A stretch of DNA of 64,000 nucleotides, taken from Candidatus Eisenbacteria bacterium. Lineage in GTDB: Bacteria; Eisenbacteria; RBG-16-71-46; CAIMUX01; JAHJDP01. Below, piece after piece: positions 48,447 to 56,385 of the stretch. A model generated the notes under the pieces. That model saw only the letters and a program-made list of their open reading frames with translations, searched no databases and was not told the origin of the DNA. The stretch spans positions 62,001-126,000 of the forward strand of contig JAHJDP010000028.1 in the NCBI GenBank assembly GCA_018831195.1, given 5' to 3'. Within the stretch, counting starts at the first letter, position 1. Each line of letters opens with the position of its first letter. Both the position numbers and the translations under genes were made by a program.

Positions 48447-49487
48447 ATGGGTTTAAGAGGGACATTATCGGATGTCGGACCGCTCGAGGCGATTCAGATG
48501 ATCGCTCTTCAGAGCCGGACGGGATGTCTGACCATCCGGGCCGGTGGTGAGAAAACCTCGATTGATTTCGTCGGCGGCGCGATCCTCTCAATGCATTCGC
48601 CGAAATTGAGGGGGAAGTCACCTCTTGTGCAGCTCTTTAGGGAGCTCGAGGTTCTCGATAACGATCAGATCCATAAATGGCTGGACCTGAATGATCCATA
48701 TCATACCGATCCTCTGGACATTCTGGATAATCTATCCTTCCTGCCTTCTGAAAAGCTCCGAGAGGTTTACCGCATCTATCTCGATGCCCAGCTGGGACGC
48801 CTTCTCCGCCAGCGCCGGGGACGCTTTCATTTCAGTGGGGCTCCCCGCGGCCGAAAGATCGAGGTCTTGAAGCCGATCAGCGCCGATGCCCTCCTGCTCG
48901 AGGGCCTGCGCCGGGGGGATGAGGTGGAAGACCTTCTCAACGGCCCGCTGCCGCCGGAAGCCGTTCCGGTTATTTTGGAATTGCACTCGGTGCCGATGTC
49001 CAAGGGAGAGGAAACGCTTGAACAGCGGATGACACGGATTGTAAGAACCCAATGTGATGGAAGATGGCCGTTGAGCGAACTCATGGAACGAAGCGCGCTT
49101 CCTGATTATGAAATTGTCACCGTTCTCGCGCGGGATGTTGAATCGGGCCGTTTGCGGCTCGTCGGTGATCCGGCGCGACCCTTCGCCGGTCCAGAGGCCG
49201 GGGAGGGTTGGATCCGCAGGTCTCTGGCCCCGGTGCTGACCGCCGCCGCGGTTCTGCTGGTCGTCATGGGTATCCGCCTCGCCCTCGACCGATTGCCGGC
49301 CCCCGCAATGGCCGGAGATATGCCGCTCTCCTCGCGTGGGGAGATTGAGACGATCTGGCGCCGGAACGAGACTTTGCGTCAGGGAAAACTTTTATTGTCG
49401 GGGCAATGGTCCACATTCCATCCGAACAGCCCGGCGGGCGCCCTCACTGATTCCCTGAAGGCGCCGTCGACGCCGACGCCCTCCTGA
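48447..49487 (+). CDS. DUF4388 (PATAN-like) domain protein with a membrane helix
   Basis: 346 residues. The opening GLRGTLSDVGPLEAIQMIA and SRTGCLTIRAGG...IDFVGGAILSM is the DUF4388 fold found in gliding, cell-polarity and response-regulator partners of delta-proteobacteria and cyanobacteria. A winged-helix-like middle (RTQCDGRWPLSELMERSALP) follows, and one helix (LAPVLTAAAVLLVVMGI) sits at about 253-270. AGGGAGAG precedes ATG 48447. Its last 44 bases overlap the tail of the opposing gene at 49444-51048. Confidence 0.8.
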   Translation: MGLRGTLSDVGPLEAIQMIALQSRTGCLTIRAGGEKTSIDFVGGAILSMHSPKLRGKSPLVQLFRELEVLDNDQIHKWLDLNDPYHTDPLDILDNLSFLPSEKLREVYRIYLDAQLGRLLRQRRGRFHFSGAPRGRKIEVLKPISADALLLEGLRRGDEVEDLLNGPLPPEAVPVILELHSVPMSKGEETLEQRMTRIVRTQCDGRWPLSELMERSALPDYEIVTVLARDVESGRLRLVGDPARPFAGPEAGEGWIRRSLAPVLTAAAVLLVVMGIRLALDRLPAPAMAGDMPLSSRGEIETIWRRNETLRQGKLLLSGQWSTFHPNSPAGALTDSLKAPSTPTPS

Positions 49488-51048
49488 GAATCCAGCGGGC
49501 CGCCGCGGTCAAATTGTCGGCCGTGTGAACCAACGCCGCCTCGGGGCGCTTGGATTCCTCCACCCCATACCCCGTCCGCACCAACAGTCCCTGAACACCA
49601 GCCCGCTTCGCTGCGATCACGTCATCCAATCGGTCGCCGATCAGAAAAGAAGAGGGCAGATCCAAATCAAGCTCCGCCGCCGCTTGCTTTAACAATCCGG
49701 GTTCCGGTTTCCGGCAACCGCAGGTCCCTGTAAAGCGGGGATGATGATGGCAGACATAAATGCCCTCCAACGCCACCCCCTCTTCGCGCAATTTTTCTTT
49801 GAGCAACCGGTGCAGGGATTGCAACTCGGGCCGGGTGAGAAGCCCCCTGGCCAGAGCCGATTGATTTGTGACGACGACGAATGTAAAACCAGCTTCTTTA
49901 AGAGTTCTCAAGGCGGATCCCACATCATCATAGAGGCGCAATTGATGCGGGCTGGAGAGATAAGGGACAAGGTGGATCAGAACGCCGTCCCGGTCGAAAA
50001 AGACGGCCCGGCGCTTGGTTCGGGCTTCTGATTCGTGCAGCAAGGACTGCAGTTCCGTCCACACATCTTCGACGCTGATGCCGTCCCAGCATTCCAAGGC
50101 ATGGGGGCATTTGGGAAGAAAGCACGGAGCGCAGGAAACCGGGTTCCTGACAATGCGGGATCGTCCGCGGGGACCGGTCCAGTTCGGGTCCGATGAGCCG
50201 AAAAGGGCGACCGTGGGGCAACCTACCGATTGAGCCAGGTGCATGGCTCCGGAATCATTGGCGACGGCGGCCCGGCATCTGCCGAGAACAGCCGCCGATT
50301 CGCGCAGGGCCAGCGCGCCGATCAGATCCATCACCCTCTCATCCCGCGCGTGAGAGTCCATCCACGGCCCCAGGAGTCCCTTTTCATCCGGGCCCCCCAT
50401 CCAGAGAAGACCGAATCCCTCCCGCAGAAGACGATCCGCCAGCTCCTGGTAGCGCTCCAAAAACCATTTCTTTGTGGGTCCGTAACGGGCGCCGGGCGCC
50501 AAGGCGATGATCGGGCGATCTCCGAAGCGCTCCAGGCGGTTCTTCGCTCCCGCCTCTTCCTCCCCGCTCAGCCGGAGCCGCGGGAGATCCGGATGACCGG
50601 GCGCCCCCAGCGCGCGAACCAAATCCCAAAACTCATCCACCAGATGAATCCGTCCGCGCCGTTTGCGGCCGAAGAGGCGGTTGAGGAGCAGCGCCCGCCC
50701 CTCCCCGGTCCAGCCGACCCGGACACCGGCCCCGGACGCCTTGAGAAGCAGGGCCGAGGAGAGTGACGGGGACAATGTTAAAGCGACGTCGAATCGCTCG
50801 CGCCGGAGGTCCCACGCCGTGCTTCGATACCAGCCAAGGCTCTTGAGACCGCCCGGCCGGGGTGGCAGCTCGATCCGCCGGTGAAAGCCGGGGATCTCCG
50901 CCGTCAGGGCGAGGGGTTCCGGCCGGCCCAGAAGGGTTGTCTGCCATTCCCCGACGCCGGCCACCGATTCGAGGGATGGAAGCGCCATGATCGTATCACC
51001 GATCCAATTAGGAAGATGTACCAGCAGACGGATCACCGCTTCACCCAC
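49444..51048 (-). CDS. Fusion of glycosyltransferase family 9 (heptosyltransferase) and GmhB-type HAD phosphatase
   Basis: 534 residues. Residues 1 to ~340 are a GT9 heptosyltransferase: HLPNWIGDTIMALPSLESV, ALAPGARYGPTKKWF, AVANDSGAMHLAQSVG. From ~345 a HAD phosphatase of the histidinol/heptose-1,7-bisphosphate group: VFFDRDGVLIHLVPY (nucleophile DxD), VVTNQSALARGLLT, zinc loop CHHHPRFTGTCGCRKPEPG, and FLIGDRLDDVIAAKRAGV. In E. coli these steps (WaaC/WaaF and GmhB) are separate proteins of LPS-core heptose supply. GTG 51048 or the in-frame GTG 51036 could be the start. It overlaps the upstream gene by 8 bases and the convergent DUF4388 gene by 44. Confidence 0.9.
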   Translation of the reverse strand: MGEAVIRLLVHLPNWIGDTIMALPSLESVAGVGEWQTTLLGRPEPLALTAEIPGFHRRIELPPRPGGLKSLGWYRSTAWDLRRERFDVALTLSPSLSSALLLKASGAGVRVGWTGEGRALLLNRLFGRKRRGRIHLVDEFWDLVRALGAPGHPDLPRLRLSGEEEAGAKNRLERFGDRPIIALAPGARYGPTKKWFLERYQELADRLLREGFGLLWMGGPDEKGLLGPWMDSHARDERVMDLIGALALRESAAVLGRCRAAVANDSGAMHLAQSVGCPTVALFGSSDPNWTGPRGRSRIVRNPVSCAPCFLPKCPHALECWDGISVEDVWTELQSLLHESEARTKRRAVFFDRDGVLIHLVPYLSSPHQLRLYDDVGSALRTLKEAGFTFVVVTNQSALARGLLTRPELQSLHRLLKEKLREEGVALEGIYVCHHHPRFTGTCGCRKPEPGLLKQAAAELDLDLPSSFLIGDRLDDVIAAKRAGVQGLLVRTGYGVEESKRPEAALVHTADNLTAAARWILRRASASTAPSGNQ

Positions 51049-53131
51049 CCAACCCGCCAGGGAAGAGGGTTCGGATCAAGCGCTCAACCTCTTCAGGCCG
51101 CTCATCCGGTGAGGTTCTCTTGAGATAATCGGACAGAACTATTCGGGCCCTCTCCTTCTGTCCATCCATGAGGAGGGCGGCGGCCAGATCCAAGCGGGCC
51201 TGGTGATCCCAAGGCGCAACCCGGATGAGTTCCGCAAAAGTGCGGATCGCGCGTCTCCAAAGCCCCCCCTGAGCGAAATTCGCCCCTTGGAGTCTTAAGA
51301 GAGGAGGATCATCGGGCCAGCGGGATAATCCCCCTTCTATAATTTTGGCGGCCTCCGCGTGGTCTTGCTGCTTGAGATAGAGACGGCCCAAATTGAGATA
51401 GAGGGACCGGGTGGCGGCGCCGAGTTCCTGCGCCCGTTTCAAGACGGCCAGGGCTTCCTCGTTCGATCCGATCTCCGCCAAATGCCCCCCAAGACTCGTC
51501 AGAAAATCAGGTTGCAACCCCTGGTTTGACCCAGCTTGGAGTCGGGTCCTCCAACCGGCCCCGAGGGTATCTCCGGGCATGGGGATGATCGAGATCTTAC
51601 CGTCCCGCCACCCCGGGCCTCCCCACTCCTCGATGGGCGTCATCTCCATCAGAGCCTGTGTGTAGAAGCCGAAGATGTCGGGAAACCGGTCCCGAGCGTC
51701 CCAAAGGGGTCCTACCGTTCGGGCGGACAGAACGAGATAATCGAAGGGCTGATACCAGCCCATCCAATGAGCGCCGCGATAGTAATCGGGACGCAAGTCG
51801 TGGTGGGGAATTCTCAGGACATGGGCCGGTCGATCGGCGGTTTTATCCTGCTTCCAACCCATCAAGGGGGCGGGGGCCATGGGATCGAGAACAATCCGGG
51901 CCCCCTGACCGACCTGATCCTCGAGCCAATCAAGCGCCGCCTGTTCGGCTGAGGGTAAACGCCACGAGGAAACCTCTTTCACAAGCCGGGGCGCCGGTGG
52001 GATGAGAAGCAGGGCCAAAGCCCCGATCAAAACCGGACGATGGGCGCTCCTCTGAAACCAACCCTGCAAACGAATCCAAACGATCATCCCTCCCTCGGCG
52101 GCAAGGATGGCGAGGTAGGGAATGAGGGGGACCACTGCAGCGCGGGTCATCCGCCCCCATGTCGCTCCCAATGGGATCAACAGGACGATGATGAGGGCGA
52201 GGAGCGCTCCCGGGTTCCGCGGCGACTTTAATCGGGCTGCCGATCCGATCAAGATCAGAAGGAGGGCGGCGGGACCAAAGCTGGTGCGGAGGAGCTTCCA
52301 AAGGGGGTCAAGCCTGACGAAGGATTCCGTCAGCGGCCCCATCCAGCCGAGAACCCGCAGGTTCCATAATGTTAAACTCCACCAGTCATTCCAGCCGAGA
52401 AGGATCTGCGGGTTCCAGAGACAGGCCAAGGGCAGCGAGACGACAAGCAGGGTGCCCCACTGCCGCCGCGCGTCACCGGTGGAGGCCGTCAATGAGGTTA
52501 AAAGAACCCCGGCGGCCACGGGAAGACCCCAGGGACTTGTTCCCAACATCATCCCAAGACCCATGGCCCGGCACCAAAGGGGAAGGGCCGACGTGGCGCA
52601 GCAAAGCAAGCCGAAGGCCAGAGCGATCGAACCAGAGGGCTCATAAAGATCGGCCAGCCATAGGGTGGAAAGGGCCAGCAGGATCCCGGCCAGCCAGCCG
52701 CTGCGTTCCCTTCTTGTGATCAGCCAGCCGGCGCCGAGGGCGGCCGCCAGGGTCAGGATCGCGAGGACGATCGACCAGAGCTCCTCCCTTTCCCGCACCA
52801 TCTCGAGAATCGCCGGCCGCGGCGTTCCCTTGATCCAGTCGATTCCGACCCAGAAGCTCTGAACGGCGAGCAGAGGCATGGCGAGGGGATCTTCCACGGG
52901 ATACGACTCACCGCTCGATTCCAGAATCTGTGTCCAGGCCTGAAGTGAATTGACCATCGCTTTGCTGCGGATGAGAGAAGGCCGGCCGTTAGGAAAGGAC
53001 CATGCCGCAATCACAATAAGGACAGGGAAAAGCATCAAGAGGCGCCGGAGAAGGCGGCGCGACCCCGCCTCTCTAAAAACCGGACGGTCCCTGTCCGGTT
53101 TAGAAATCGGTTCCGAAGATAAGCTCTCCAC
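51041..53131 (-). CDS. Multi-pass GT-C-like membrane protein with C-terminal TPRs
   Basis: 696 residues. The N-terminal half has about ten hydrophobic helices (e.g. IVLAILTLAAALGAGWLIT, LAGILLALSTLWLADLYEP, GLPVAAGVLLTSLTA, ALLALIIVLLIPLGATWG) in the layout of GT-C/PMT-type glycosyltransferases. A soluble region with EEWGGPGWRDGKI follows, then TPRs from about 560 (EEALAVLKRAQELG, HAEAAKIIEGGLSRWPDD, RAIRTFAELIRVAPWD). The acidic first-loop catalytic motif of GT-C enzymes is not obvious, so the activity is uncertain. GTG start 53131 lies inside the end of the barrel gene (32-base overlap). Its neighbours suggest envelope glycan or glycoprotein assembly. Confidence 0.73.
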   Translation of the reverse strand: MESLSSEPISKPDRDRPVFREAGSRRLLRRLLMLFPVLIVIAAWSFPNGRPSLIRSKAMVNSLQAWTQILESSGESYPVEDPLAMPLLAVQSFWVGIDWIKGTPRPAILEMVREREELWSIVLAILTLAAALGAGWLITRRERSGWLAGILLALSTLWLADLYEPSGSIALAFGLLCCATSALPLWCRAMGLGMMLGTSPWGLPVAAGVLLTSLTASTGDARRQWGTLLVVSLPLACLWNPQILLGWNDWWSLTLWNLRVLGWMGPLTESFVRLDPLWKLLRTSFGPAALLLILIGSAARLKSPRNPGALLALIIVLLIPLGATWGRMTRAAVVPLIPYLAILAAEGGMIVWIRLQGWFQRSAHRPVLIGALALLLIPPAPRLVKEVSSWRLPSAEQAALDWLEDQVGQGARIVLDPMAPAPLMGWKQDKTADRPAHVLRIPHHDLRPDYYRGAHWMGWYQPFDYLVLSARTVGPLWDARDRFPDIFGFYTQALMEMTPIEEWGGPGWRDGKISIIPMPGDTLGAGWRTRLQAGSNQGLQPDFLTSLGGHLAEIGSNEEALAVLKRAQELGAATRSLYLNLGRLYLKQQDHAEAAKIIEGGLSRWPDDPPLLRLQGANFAQGGLWRRAIRTFAELIRVAPWDHQARLDLAAALLMDGQKERARIVLSDYLKRTSPDERPEEVERLIRTLFPGGLGG

Positions 53132-56100
53132 GAGCCTTTCGCGTGCCGCGGACCAGATCCGTGGCTTGGGCCAGATCCCAGCGCAGGATCAGAAAGCCCA
53201 AATTCATCGAAGCGCCCAAACCATAGGAAGCCCGCAGATCTTCCAAATGCCGGCGTCCCTGATCGTCCGTGCCGAATGCCCTGAAATGTTCCGCCTCCGT
53301 CCAGGCGGCCCCGAGATCAAAGTAGAACGCTCCGCGGATTCCTCTGAACTCCAATTTCAGTGGCCATCCCAGCCGCAATTGATCAACGAGGGGAAAACGG
53401 AACTCAATATTTGTAAAAGCGATTCGGGTTCCCTCCAATTCGCCATAATCATATCCCCGCATGGTAAAGGGACCGCCGATCCGGAAAATTTGAGGATCCC
53501 CCCCATAGCTCGATGCCGCAACGAGCCGGAGGGCCAATGCGTACCTCTGGCGTACATTCAGGTATTCCCGGTGATCCATCAGCAGCGTTATATAACTGAG
53601 ATCACCGACGGCCCCGTCCACCGAATACCGGTAACGCGACCCGCTGATCGGCCCGGTCGGACCGAAAAGCGTCGTATCTTTCACCAGAGCGAGGCCTGGT
53701 GAGAAATAGGTATACTTATCCTGCCTGTCCAATGAGTAATAATTCGACGCCTCGAAACTTTCCTGATAGACCATCTCATCGACATTCAAAGCCTGAAGAC
53801 GCAATTCAAGACGCCGAAAACGGCTGAAGGGTCTCGACAGACTCAGTTCCACGCCCCGATAGATCTGGCTGATAAACTCATCGGACGATTGCGCGGCGAA
53901 AATGTAAAAGTCATTCCGGAACTGAAAGGCGCCCGCGCCCCAATGAATCCGATTCTTCATATTGTAATATTGGAGCAACAGGTTGGCGTCTTCGAGCGAT
54001 CCGTAAATATCGGCTCCCACGACAATGTTGTGATCACCCAAAATATCGCTGAAGTAGAGCAGAGACTGGGCGCCCAATCCTACATTGGTGGCGAAAAAGC
54101 CATTGGCGCTGACATAGTCGACGCTGAAACGGGGTTTGTAGCCGCGGATCAAATGGGATGACGAATCAGGCAACTCCTTTGTTTCGGCGAAGACCTGCAA
54201 AATATCGATAGGCTCCTCAGGCACAGGGTCTTTGAAACGAAAAGCGCCTTCACCGCCGCGAAAACGATCATGCGGATGCTCTTGAAGTACAACTTCGAAG
54301 GTATCCACGCCGGCGATCAAGGGATCATCCACCGGCCACGGCGGCCCCATCCAATCCTTGGGATTGATCGGGGAAGCCGGCAGCATTGCCGCCGAATCGG
54401 GTTCATCCGCCAGCGGGGGGAGGTCGGTGAGATCCAGGATCTCCCCTCCGGGGGGCGAAGAATGAACAACAACGAAAGCGGGGCCCTTTTCCGGCACATC
54501 CCTCGCCGGGGCGCCCTCTTTGCGCCAGCGGTCGATCGGATCCTTTATGGCGTAAATATCCCAACCCCCGATGCTGAAAGAAGTGAAGAGCAATCGCCGG
54601 CCGTCCCGCGCAAGGGAGATGGGGGTTCCCCAGGGAACAATCCCCGTGACACCGGTCAGGATATCGGTGATGGGGCCGTCCTGGCCCGTCTCGATATCCC
54701 GGATGTTGATATTTGATATACCCGACCGGTCGGTGACATAGGCGATTCTCTTGCCATCCGGAAACCAGTAAGGGGAAATATTCTTTCCCTCCTGGCCGGA
54801 CAGCACCTCGATCTCCTCGGTCTCGAGATAGAAAATCGCGATTTCCGGTTTTGAGAAAATGAGATTTCCCCAATCGGTATCGGGCCCCCGGTCGGTCACG
54901 AATGCGATCTTCTTCCCGTCCGGTGAGAATTGGGGCTCTCGAACCATGAAGCGGTCGTTTGTTAAAGCTCTTACATTCTTGCCGTCGGCGTCGACGATAA
55001 AGAGGTCGCTGCGCCCGCCCCGCAGACCGACGAAGGTGATCTGTTGGCCATCGGGAGACCAGGATGGGGCCTGCAATCCCTCGATATTGAAAAGATGGCG
55101 ATGCAGAATCTTTTTCTTGCGCACATCCATGATATAGAGCGCGTCCCGGTCTCCCACTTTGGCGGAGAAGGCGAGACGGGTGTTATCAGGCGCCCAAGCG
55201 AAGGTGGCGTCCAAAAAACGGAGGGATTCAAATGCTTCCCGCCGTTCACCCTTGATCAATCGATGGATCACCTTGCCATCGATCGCTGAAGCAAGATAAA
55301 GATCGTTGTACAAAGAACGATCCGAGAGATAGACCATGAGGGACCCATCCGGAGACACGGCCGGCGACAGATTGATGGAACTGCCGTCCCAATCATGACG
55401 GGTCAGCTGTTTGGCAAAGGAAACCGCCTTTTCGTGCTCCGCTATTTGCGGGAGATAGGTGCGCCGGACGGATTCGGTCCAATTATCCGAGAGTTTCTCG
55501 AGATTCATCCCGAGCACCTCTTCGACGGCAAAAGAAAGGTTGCGCGTCCGGGTCATCGTCTTGAAAAGAAGACCGATCGTCTCATCGCCATAGGTCTGCC
55601 CGATGTAGGCCATGATCGCCTGGCCGTAACGATAGACCCGGATATCATAGACATAATTCAGATCCGGTATCGACGTCAGATACCCTTGAAGCGCTCCATC
55701 CCGCAGCCACATCCGGGTGTGGTCGTCGACATACCCGGTGGAAAGATACTCCGCCATCCCCTCCATCACCCACAAGGGGGGCGAGTAGGAGAAGGCGTTC
55801 CTTAAACGTCCTTCCTTGCTGCCCCATAAGATATCTATTTGAAAGGCATGCACCAGCTCATGGGTGAGAACCTGATCGAATTGGGCCAGCGATCCGGTGA
55901 AGGGCAGGGTGACGCGGCGCTTGAGAAACTCGGTCAACCCTCCGGTTCCCTCACCGATGAGGCCGCTTGAGACATTTGATTCCTGAAAATCGGTCTGGGA
56001 CGCGTAAAGGATCAGTGGGATCTTATCTTCAACGTCATGATTCAGTATCCGGCTCAAGCGGGCATAGGCCCGTTCAGCCATCATGGCCGCATCGGCGGCC

Positions 56101-56321
56101 GACCCCTTCTCGCTTTCATAGTAATAAATATCAAAGTGATCGGTCTCGGTGACGGCCCATTTCAGGTTTCGATAATGGACTTTGTTCCGTCCGAAATACT
56201 GGGCTGAGGCTGTCTGAGGTAAGAGGGTGAGGGCAGAGCAGGCCAGGAGGGCCGTTCCCAGTAGAATCCTAAATCCTCGGATCTTCGGCAGCTTCTCCAG
56301 AAGAGGTCTCCTTATCAACAT
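53100..56321 (-). CDS. Tripartite outer-membrane protein: gluzincin-like peptidase, TolB-type propeller and BamA-type barrel
   Basis: 1,073 residues. Signal peptide (LLGTALLACSALTLLPQTASA). Residues ~45-300 are a peptidase-MA-like domain with HELVH at 154-158 and a Glu-rich WVMEGMAEYLS (E187/E191). Then several PD40/TolB blades (APSWSPDGQQITFVG, EPQFSPDGKKIAFVTDRG, SPYWFPDGKRIAYVTDRSG) to about 590. After a Pro-rich linker comes a C-terminal ~350-residue barrel with the Omp85/D15 landmark FRIGGPFTMRGYDYGELEG and last-strand aromatic end ELIFGTDF. ATG 56321 is chosen for GAGGAG and the signal peptide. No POTRA domains. Domain combination seen directly; a protease/insertase or autotransport role is inference. 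First gene of the envelope operon, promoter at 56356-56385. Confidence 0.9.
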   Translation of the reverse strand: MLIRRPLLEKLPKIRGFRILLGTALLACSALTLLPQTASAQYFGRNKVHYRNLKWAVTETDHFDIYYYESEKGSAADAAMMAERAYARLSRILNHDVEDKIPLILYASQTDFQESNVSSGLIGEGTGGLTEFLKRRVTLPFTGSLAQFDQVLTHELVHAFQIDILWGSKEGRLRNAFSYSPPLWVMEGMAEYLSTGYVDDHTRMWLRDGALQGYLTSIPDLNYVYDIRVYRYGQAIMAYIGQTYGDETIGLLFKTMTRTRNLSFAVEEVLGMNLEKLSDNWTESVRRTYLPQIAEHEKAVSFAKQLTRHDWDGSSINLSPAVSPDGSLMVYLSDRSLYNDLYLASAIDGKVIHRLIKGERREAFESLRFLDATFAWAPDNTRLAFSAKVGDRDALYIMDVRKKKILHRHLFNIEGLQAPSWSPDGQQITFVGLRGGRSDLFIVDADGKNVRALTNDRFMVREPQFSPDGKKIAFVTDRGPDTDWGNLIFSKPEIAIFYLETEEIEVLSGQEGKNISPYWFPDGKRIAYVTDRSGISNINIRDIETGQDGPITDILTGVTGIVPWGTPISLARDGRRLLFTSFSIGGWDIYAIKDPIDRWRKEGAPARDVPEKGPAFVVVHSSPPGGEILDLTDLPPLADEPDSAAMLPASPINPKDWMGPPWPVDDPLIAGVDTFEVVLQEHPHDRFRGGEGAFRFKDPVPEEPIDILQVFAETKELPDSSSHLIRGYKPRFSVDYVSANGFFATNVGLGAQSLLYFSDILGDHNIVVGADIYGSLEDANLLLQYYNMKNRIHWGAGAFQFRNDFYIFAAQSSDEFISQIYRGVELSLSRPFSRFRRLELRLQALNVDEMVYQESFEASNYYSLDRQDKYTYFSPGLALVKDTTLFGPTGPISGSRYRYSVDGAVGDLSYITLLMDHREYLNVRQRYALALRLVAASSYGGDPQIFRIGGPFTMRGYDYGELEGTRIAFTNIEFRFPLVDQLRLGWPLKLEFRGIRGAFYFDLGAAWTEAEHFRAFGTDDQGRRHLEDLRASYGLGASMNLGFLILRWDLAQATDLVRGTRKARGELIFGTDF

Positions 56322-56355
56322 CGGTGGCTCCTCAGTTTTCCAATCCCTCATCCCC

Positions 56356-56385
56356 ATTGTAGGCCCGACCCTCATGGCAGGGCAA
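56356..56385 (-). promoter_or_regulatory. Putative sigma70 promoter for the BamA-fusion operon
   Basis: Minus strand -35 TTGCCC (56385-56380), 18-base spacer, -10 TACAAT (56361-56356). Start near 56349, only ~27 bases before ATG 56321. Confidence 0.6.

Follow-up and report, generated by a model that had tools for sequence, protein, structure and literature searches.

A putative outer-membrane-anchored zinc metallopeptidase fused to a TolB-like propeller and an Omp85 barrel in Eisenbacteria and related phyla

The window analysed here, a stretch of 64,000 nucleotides from a Candidatus Eisenbacteria genome, carries an open reading frame (P0001) of 1091 stop-free codons on the minus strand. Its true start is likely an internal ATG (Met19) at 56321, judging from the sequence; a plausible signal peptide begins there, and the initial annotation had used the same position as its end coordinate. 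That annotation described a HELVH gluzincin domain, a TolB-type propeller and an Omp85 barrel in one polypeptide, a layout that is borne out by Pfam matches, AF2 models and homologues. The features of the locus are as follows.

53100..56375 (-): fusion ORF P0001, 1091 amino acids
56202..56321 (-): signal peptide, residues 19-58, ending in TASAQ, from the sequence with the cleavage site placed by eye
56178..56195 (-): FGRNKV, residues 61-66, mature N-terminal signature, from the alignment
55401..56198 (-): gluzincin-type (MA clan) peptidase domain, residues 60-325, from Pfam, the AF2 model and PDB matches
55848..55862 (-): HELVH zinc-binding and catalytic motif, residues 172-176
55761..55763 (-): Glu205, predicted third zinc ligand, in PPLWVMEGMAEYLS
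54540..55400 (-): TolB-like PD40 beta-propeller, residues 326-612, from Pfam, NCBIfam and PDB matches
54144..54539 (-): disordered, variable linker without POTRA, residues 613-744, from pLDDT, homologue lengths and entropy
53103..54143 (-): Omp85 barrel, residues 745-1091, with an aromatic last residue (Phe), from Pfam, the model and the alignment
53451..53459 (-): RGY, residues 973-975, the Omp85 loop-6 (V)RGF/Y motif, from the alignment
51041..53131 (-): TPR membrane protein, downstream of the fusion with a 32-nucleotide overlap, gene order conserved
49444..51048 (-): LPS heptosyltransferase II fused in one ORF to a GmhB-like (heptose bisphosphate) phosphatase, the next gene

The same layout recurs in 123 other full-length homologues, which rules out an assembly or frame artefact or a chance arrangement. 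PDB matches of a full-length AF2 model built from 14 sequences (pLDDT 68.7, pTM 0.52) include TolB propellers and BamA barrels; the placement of the domains relative to one another in this model is tentative.

The value of the initial annotation depended on a zinc site that is complete in most homologues. In an alignment of 124 unique full-length proteins, no row departs from H172, E173, H176 or E205, a result that excludes a degenerate site, and that R154, W202, G206 and Y248 are likewise invariant in this alignment. Glu205 resides downstream of HELVH within the sequence WxxEGxAEY, and every one of the 124 proteins thus has the HExxH plus downstream Glu of the gluzincins (MA clan). A catalytic glutamate of this type (Glu173 here) is required for hydrolysis, not for zinc binding. 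The homologues with intact zinc residues span 26-54% identity. Because the pattern used for the homologue scan contained HEL[VT]H, and so could bias the count, we also considered the 55 rows (window protein included) that were selected independently of this pattern, and the site is intact in all 55.

The fold of the domain agrees with this assignment. Modelled alone by AF2 from 90 sequences, the peptidase domain reaches a pLDDT of 91.1 and a pTM of 0.88, and its best PDB matches (probability 1.00) are the peptidase domains of clostridial collagenases (M9) and M1 aminopeptidases, consistent with a thermolysin-like fold. Both M9 collagenases and M1 aminopeptidases are gluzincins. Microbial collagenases also rank first in a sequence profile search with the domain. 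In Pfam scans of full-length P0001, the Peptidase_MA_2, BSP and M9 matches over the HELVH region all fall below the curated cut-off; when the peptidase domain is scanned alone, BSP rises above it (26.7 versus 23.8), and 75 of 90 homologous peptidase domains match Peptidase_MA_2. No Peptidase_M48 match was found by Pfam in the full protein (E up to 1) or in the peptidase domains (E up to 0.01). The domain shares the gluzincin fold and the HExxH...E arrangement with M9 collagenases and Peptidase_MA_2 proteins, but with only 14-18% identity, without a collagen-binding context, and as part of a chain that also includes a propeller and a barrel.

The segment of homologous proteins that corresponds to the signal peptide ends in AxAQ and is followed by FGxNK. 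The F, G, N and K of this FGxNKV signature are invariant among the 124 aligned homologues, and its conservation at the mature N-terminus is just below that of the zinc site. We can only guess at its role, which might be that of a docking peptide, a pro-segment or an active-site cap.

Downstream of the peptidase, PD40 is matched in five stretches (106 bits, over the curated cut-off), and the best PDB matches of the propeller are TolB. P0001 scores 130 bits with the NCBIfam TolB model TIGR02800, for which the cut-off is 343, and its match to the BamA profile is also below the equivalog cut-off. Although the propeller resembles those of TolB and BamB, and is closest to that of TolB, it forms only a part of P0001, and Pfam scans of the protein find no TolB_N domain. 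A role for P0001 as a substitute for TolB is thus unsupported, although the genome of the window also yields no TolB_N match.

The absence of POTRA domains noted in the initial annotation also holds, in that the Pfam scan finds no POTRA model match. Residues 621-772 of the full-length model have pLDDT values below 50 and are predicted to be disordered, and the linker ranges from 29 to 243 amino acids among homologues and is the least conserved part of the protein, with the highest entropy. Disorder, length range and entropy together rule out a hidden POTRA domain in this region.

Missing barrel strands would have refuted the original proposal, but both the model and every homologue contain the barrel. 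The Omp85 family (PF01103) is matched at residues 807-1076 with 57.3 bits against a cut-off of 24, and DSSP assigns approximately 15 barrel strands to the full-length model. An additional N-terminal strand around the conserved Tyr746, which lies in a region of low pLDDT, is plausible. Furthermore, the R and G of the loop-6 motif are kept in 120 of 124 homologues, and the RG(Y/F), ExRxP and FxDxGxxW motifs align with those of BamA and TamA from the same genome. The last residue is F, Y or W in 120/124, and a C-terminal aromatic residue is common for outer-membrane proteins.

An ordinary BamA, for which the initial annotation had advised a search, is indeed encoded elsewhere in the genome, with four POTRA matches and beside skp-lpxD-lpxC. 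This finding rules out P0001, which lacks the POTRA domains of a BamA, as a BamA substitute. The classic bamA-skp-lpxD-lpxC cluster is located at L129:3849-10085 (G000:C28), where LpxC and FabZ are fused in one ORF. Two separate TamA-TamB pairs are also present in this genome, at G000:C46:60215-65700 and G000:C32:102380-107328. Both are away from P0001, and inspection of the neighbours of the C46 pair revealed no adjoining fusion gene.

The phylogenetic spread of the architecture is wide. The 123 other full-length homologues are found across Eisenbacteria, Gemmatimonadota, Latescibacterota, Zixibacteria, Calditrichota, Neomarinimicrobia, Ignavibacteriota and Bacteroidota, and 57 of 59 related genomes have a match, some of them to the propeller only. 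Among the best 80 loci, which give lower bounds for each taxon, we counted 34 from Gemmatimonadota, 13 from Eisenbacteria, seven from Zixibacteria, five from Latescibacterota, three each from Calditrichota and Neomarinimicrobia/Fidelibacterota, two from Bacteroidota and one from Ignavibacteriota, with KSB1 also represented. Among 29 relatives, no propeller-barrel protein without the peptidase was found, except for short ORFs that we took to be contig-end fragments.

The tree has two main groups, A (97 proteins) and B (26 shorter proteins). Two or three fusion copies occur in some genomes, and the genome of the window holds one copy per group, P0001 in A and C119:90975-93746 in B. In the stretch L110:6970-13177 (G000:C119, about 90970-97180), the gene directly after the group-B copy encodes a BamB-type PQQ propeller together with a PEGA domain, and the one after that a predicted lipoprotein that contains NHL-type repeats. 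A related protein is seen again beside the group-B copies of family f7 (L115-L118). In several genomes of f7, approximately 7 kb separates a group A copy from a group B copy, and the two share their orientation.

The gene neighbourhood differs between lineages. In the order to which the window belongs, the fusion gene overlaps the gene for the TPR membrane protein, with which it is probably co-transcribed, and the heptosyltransferase II-GmhB fusion follows. One Eisenbacteria subclade (families f9 and f10, of the same class) has, in 11 genomes, the order TamA-like, TamB, fusion on one strand. In each of them the gene immediately upstream of the fusion is TamB, and the TamA-like POTRA-Omp85 gene precedes TamB wherever the contig extends so far, with some contigs ending before it. 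At the nine loci measured, the distance from the end of TamB to the start of FGxNK is 156-233 nucleotides, which leaves space for little beyond a signal peptide. Four of these genomes were checked, and each has exactly one TamB match together with a separate full-length BamA, indicating that the operon is their only TAM-type locus. A comparison of one f9 fusion with one from f10 gave 48% identity, and these TAM-linked copies, which belong to a different subclade, are approximately 35% identical to P0001. In Zixibacteria and their kin, the fusion gene follows MurA, with LpxH nearby, and in Gemmatimonadota it is often followed by a gene for a SPOR-domain protein. The partners thus change between phyla, and many of them belong to envelope biogenesis.

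Fusions of a propeller to a barrel are already known. WD40-Omp85 is one of ten subfamilies catalogued in 2014, where the survey's main text likens it to a BamA-BamB fusion and puts forward an assembly-type role (Heinz & Lithgow, PMC4104836). Like the proteins described there, P0001 has an Omp85-type barrel, an N-terminal TolB-like WD40/PD40 propeller and no POTRA domain, whereas the main text makes no mention of an N-terminal zinc peptidase for the subfamily (PMC4104836). Measured against that text, the new elements are the identity of the peptidase and its invariant catalytic site, the FGxNKV signature, and the TamA-like-TamB-fusion operon in two families. Beyond the 2014 survey, our literature searches turned up no work on this fusion, and they found no experiment on any of its members. 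The Pfam family PF00149 is the calcineurin-like phosphoesterase family. Because PF00149 defines the separate 'Metallo' subfamily, whose members the survey's text calls metalloproteases (PMC4104836), the WD40 subfamily, instead of 'Metallo', may be the true protease-Omp85 fusion.

Two other systems offer instructive comparisons. PlpD, the best-studied enzyme-Omp85 fusion and the only one that we found to have been tested for the location of its enzyme, resembles P0001 in that a single chain carries an enzyme domain ahead of its Omp85 barrel, but this domain, which is exclusively periplasmic, is a patatin lipase followed by POTRA (PMC11116518), and neither patatin nor POTRA, the features of PlpD and type Vd proteins, is found in P0001 by Pfam. 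BepA is a periplasmic zinc metalloprotease with the same HExxH plus Glu arrangement, and acts on clients at the BAM complex, the site of outer-membrane assembly (PMC8423444). In contrast to P0001, it is a stand-alone M48 protein with a TPR domain, and is not fused to a barrel (PMC8423444).

We consider P0001 to be a putative outer-membrane-anchored, periplasm-facing zinc metallopeptidase with a role in the assembly or quality control of outer-membrane proteins, and assign this reading a probability of about one half. Both termini of Omp85 barrels are in the periplasm, as is established for the superfamily. This topology, the PlpD and BepA precedents and the operon evidence favour a protease that faces the periplasm. 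In effect, P0001 is best read as what may be BepA-, BamB- and BamA-like parts in one chain. Further support comes from the invariant zinc residues, the confidently modelled gluzincin fold and the barrel motifs shared with BamA and TamA, as well as from the MurA and LpxH neighbours in Zixibacteria, the SPOR proteins in Gemmatimonadota and the heptosyltransferase in the order of the window. Several observations count against it, namely that the TAM-linked copies lie in another subclade, that some genomes have multiple copies, that the TamA-TamB pair on C46 lacks a fusion, and that neighbourhoods shift.

If this reading is correct, the fusion would be exported by the Sec system, its signal peptide would be cleaved, and the barrel would be inserted into the outer membrane by the ordinary BamA of the genome. 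The peptidase and propeller would hang below the membrane on the linker, which the model predicts to be flexible, on the periplasmic side expected from Omp85 topology. There, the TolB/BamB-like propeller may dock partners or substrates, and the conserved gluzincin site is predicted to cut stalled or misfolded outer-membrane clients or to process a specific client. In one subclade the fusion might work with the TAM-type TamA-like/TamB pair with which it shares an operon, and in the lineage of the window it is linked to an LPS heptosyltransferase instead. It could also be that the barrel is a mere anchor and that the clients are related to lipid or peptidoglycan instead of being outer-membrane proteins.

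The initial annotation had offered both surface display and assembly with quality control; the latter gains from the operon and the envelope neighbours, and the former has no positive evidence. For surface display, the peptidase and propeller would cross their own barrel in a manner similar to type V secretion and act outside, for example in nutrition or predation. A flexible linker that precedes a C-terminal barrel, as in autotransporters, and a collagenase-like fold suited to an extracellular role would fit this proposal, but P0001 has no POTRA or autotransporter-type elements, it sits among housekeeping genes and genes of envelope biogenesis, and the stable conservation of the family is not what secreted enzymes typically show. 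PlpD, the nearest studied analogue, was long assumed to work in this way and keeps its enzyme domain in the periplasm (PMC11116518), which makes surface display possible but rather unlikely.

A comparably doubtful alternative is that P0001 is a true assembly factor, whose barrel inserts or translocates substrates while the propeller and peptidase replace POTRA domains as gatekeepers. The barrel motifs shared with BamA and TamA and the position as third gene of the TamA-like-TamB operon argue for this role, but full BamA and TamA-like proteins are also present, and some Omp85 proteins, PlpD among them, carry these motifs without being known insertases. The assembly-type role in the 2014 survey's main text (PMC4104836) would also fit. 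Least probable is a non-proteolytic domain, either a zinc- or peptide-binding sensor or scaffold or part of a protein for lipid or peptidoglycan transport, because the catalytic Glu173 is invariant in 124/124, even though the TamB-linked operon could mean lipid transport (one article, by its title, proposes TAM as a phospholipid conduit; PMC11014939) and the SPOR and MurA neighbours point to peptidoglycan.

A more ambitious version of the assembly and quality control reading, which we regard as tentative and rather improbable as a whole, is that the fusion is a third TAM/BAM-type component. Such a protease-propeller-Omp85 machine would survey outer-membrane protein assembly and destroy or process clients at the membrane, would be core to Eisenbacteria and many FCB-group phyla, and would take the place of the BepA/BamB-type partners that are separate in proteobacteria. 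Most of what is known about the quality control of outer-membrane proteins comes from proteobacteria, in which the protease, the propeller and the barrel are each a protein of their own. A widely conserved version that combines them in a single chain, with an invariant catalytic site, would be a physically linked assembly-plus-degradation unit, and could be expressed and solved as one protein. The WD40-Omp85 subfamily, so far described as a BamA-BamB-like fusion whose role is unknown, would then be extended to an enzyme, and the fusion is a candidate third partner of TAM.
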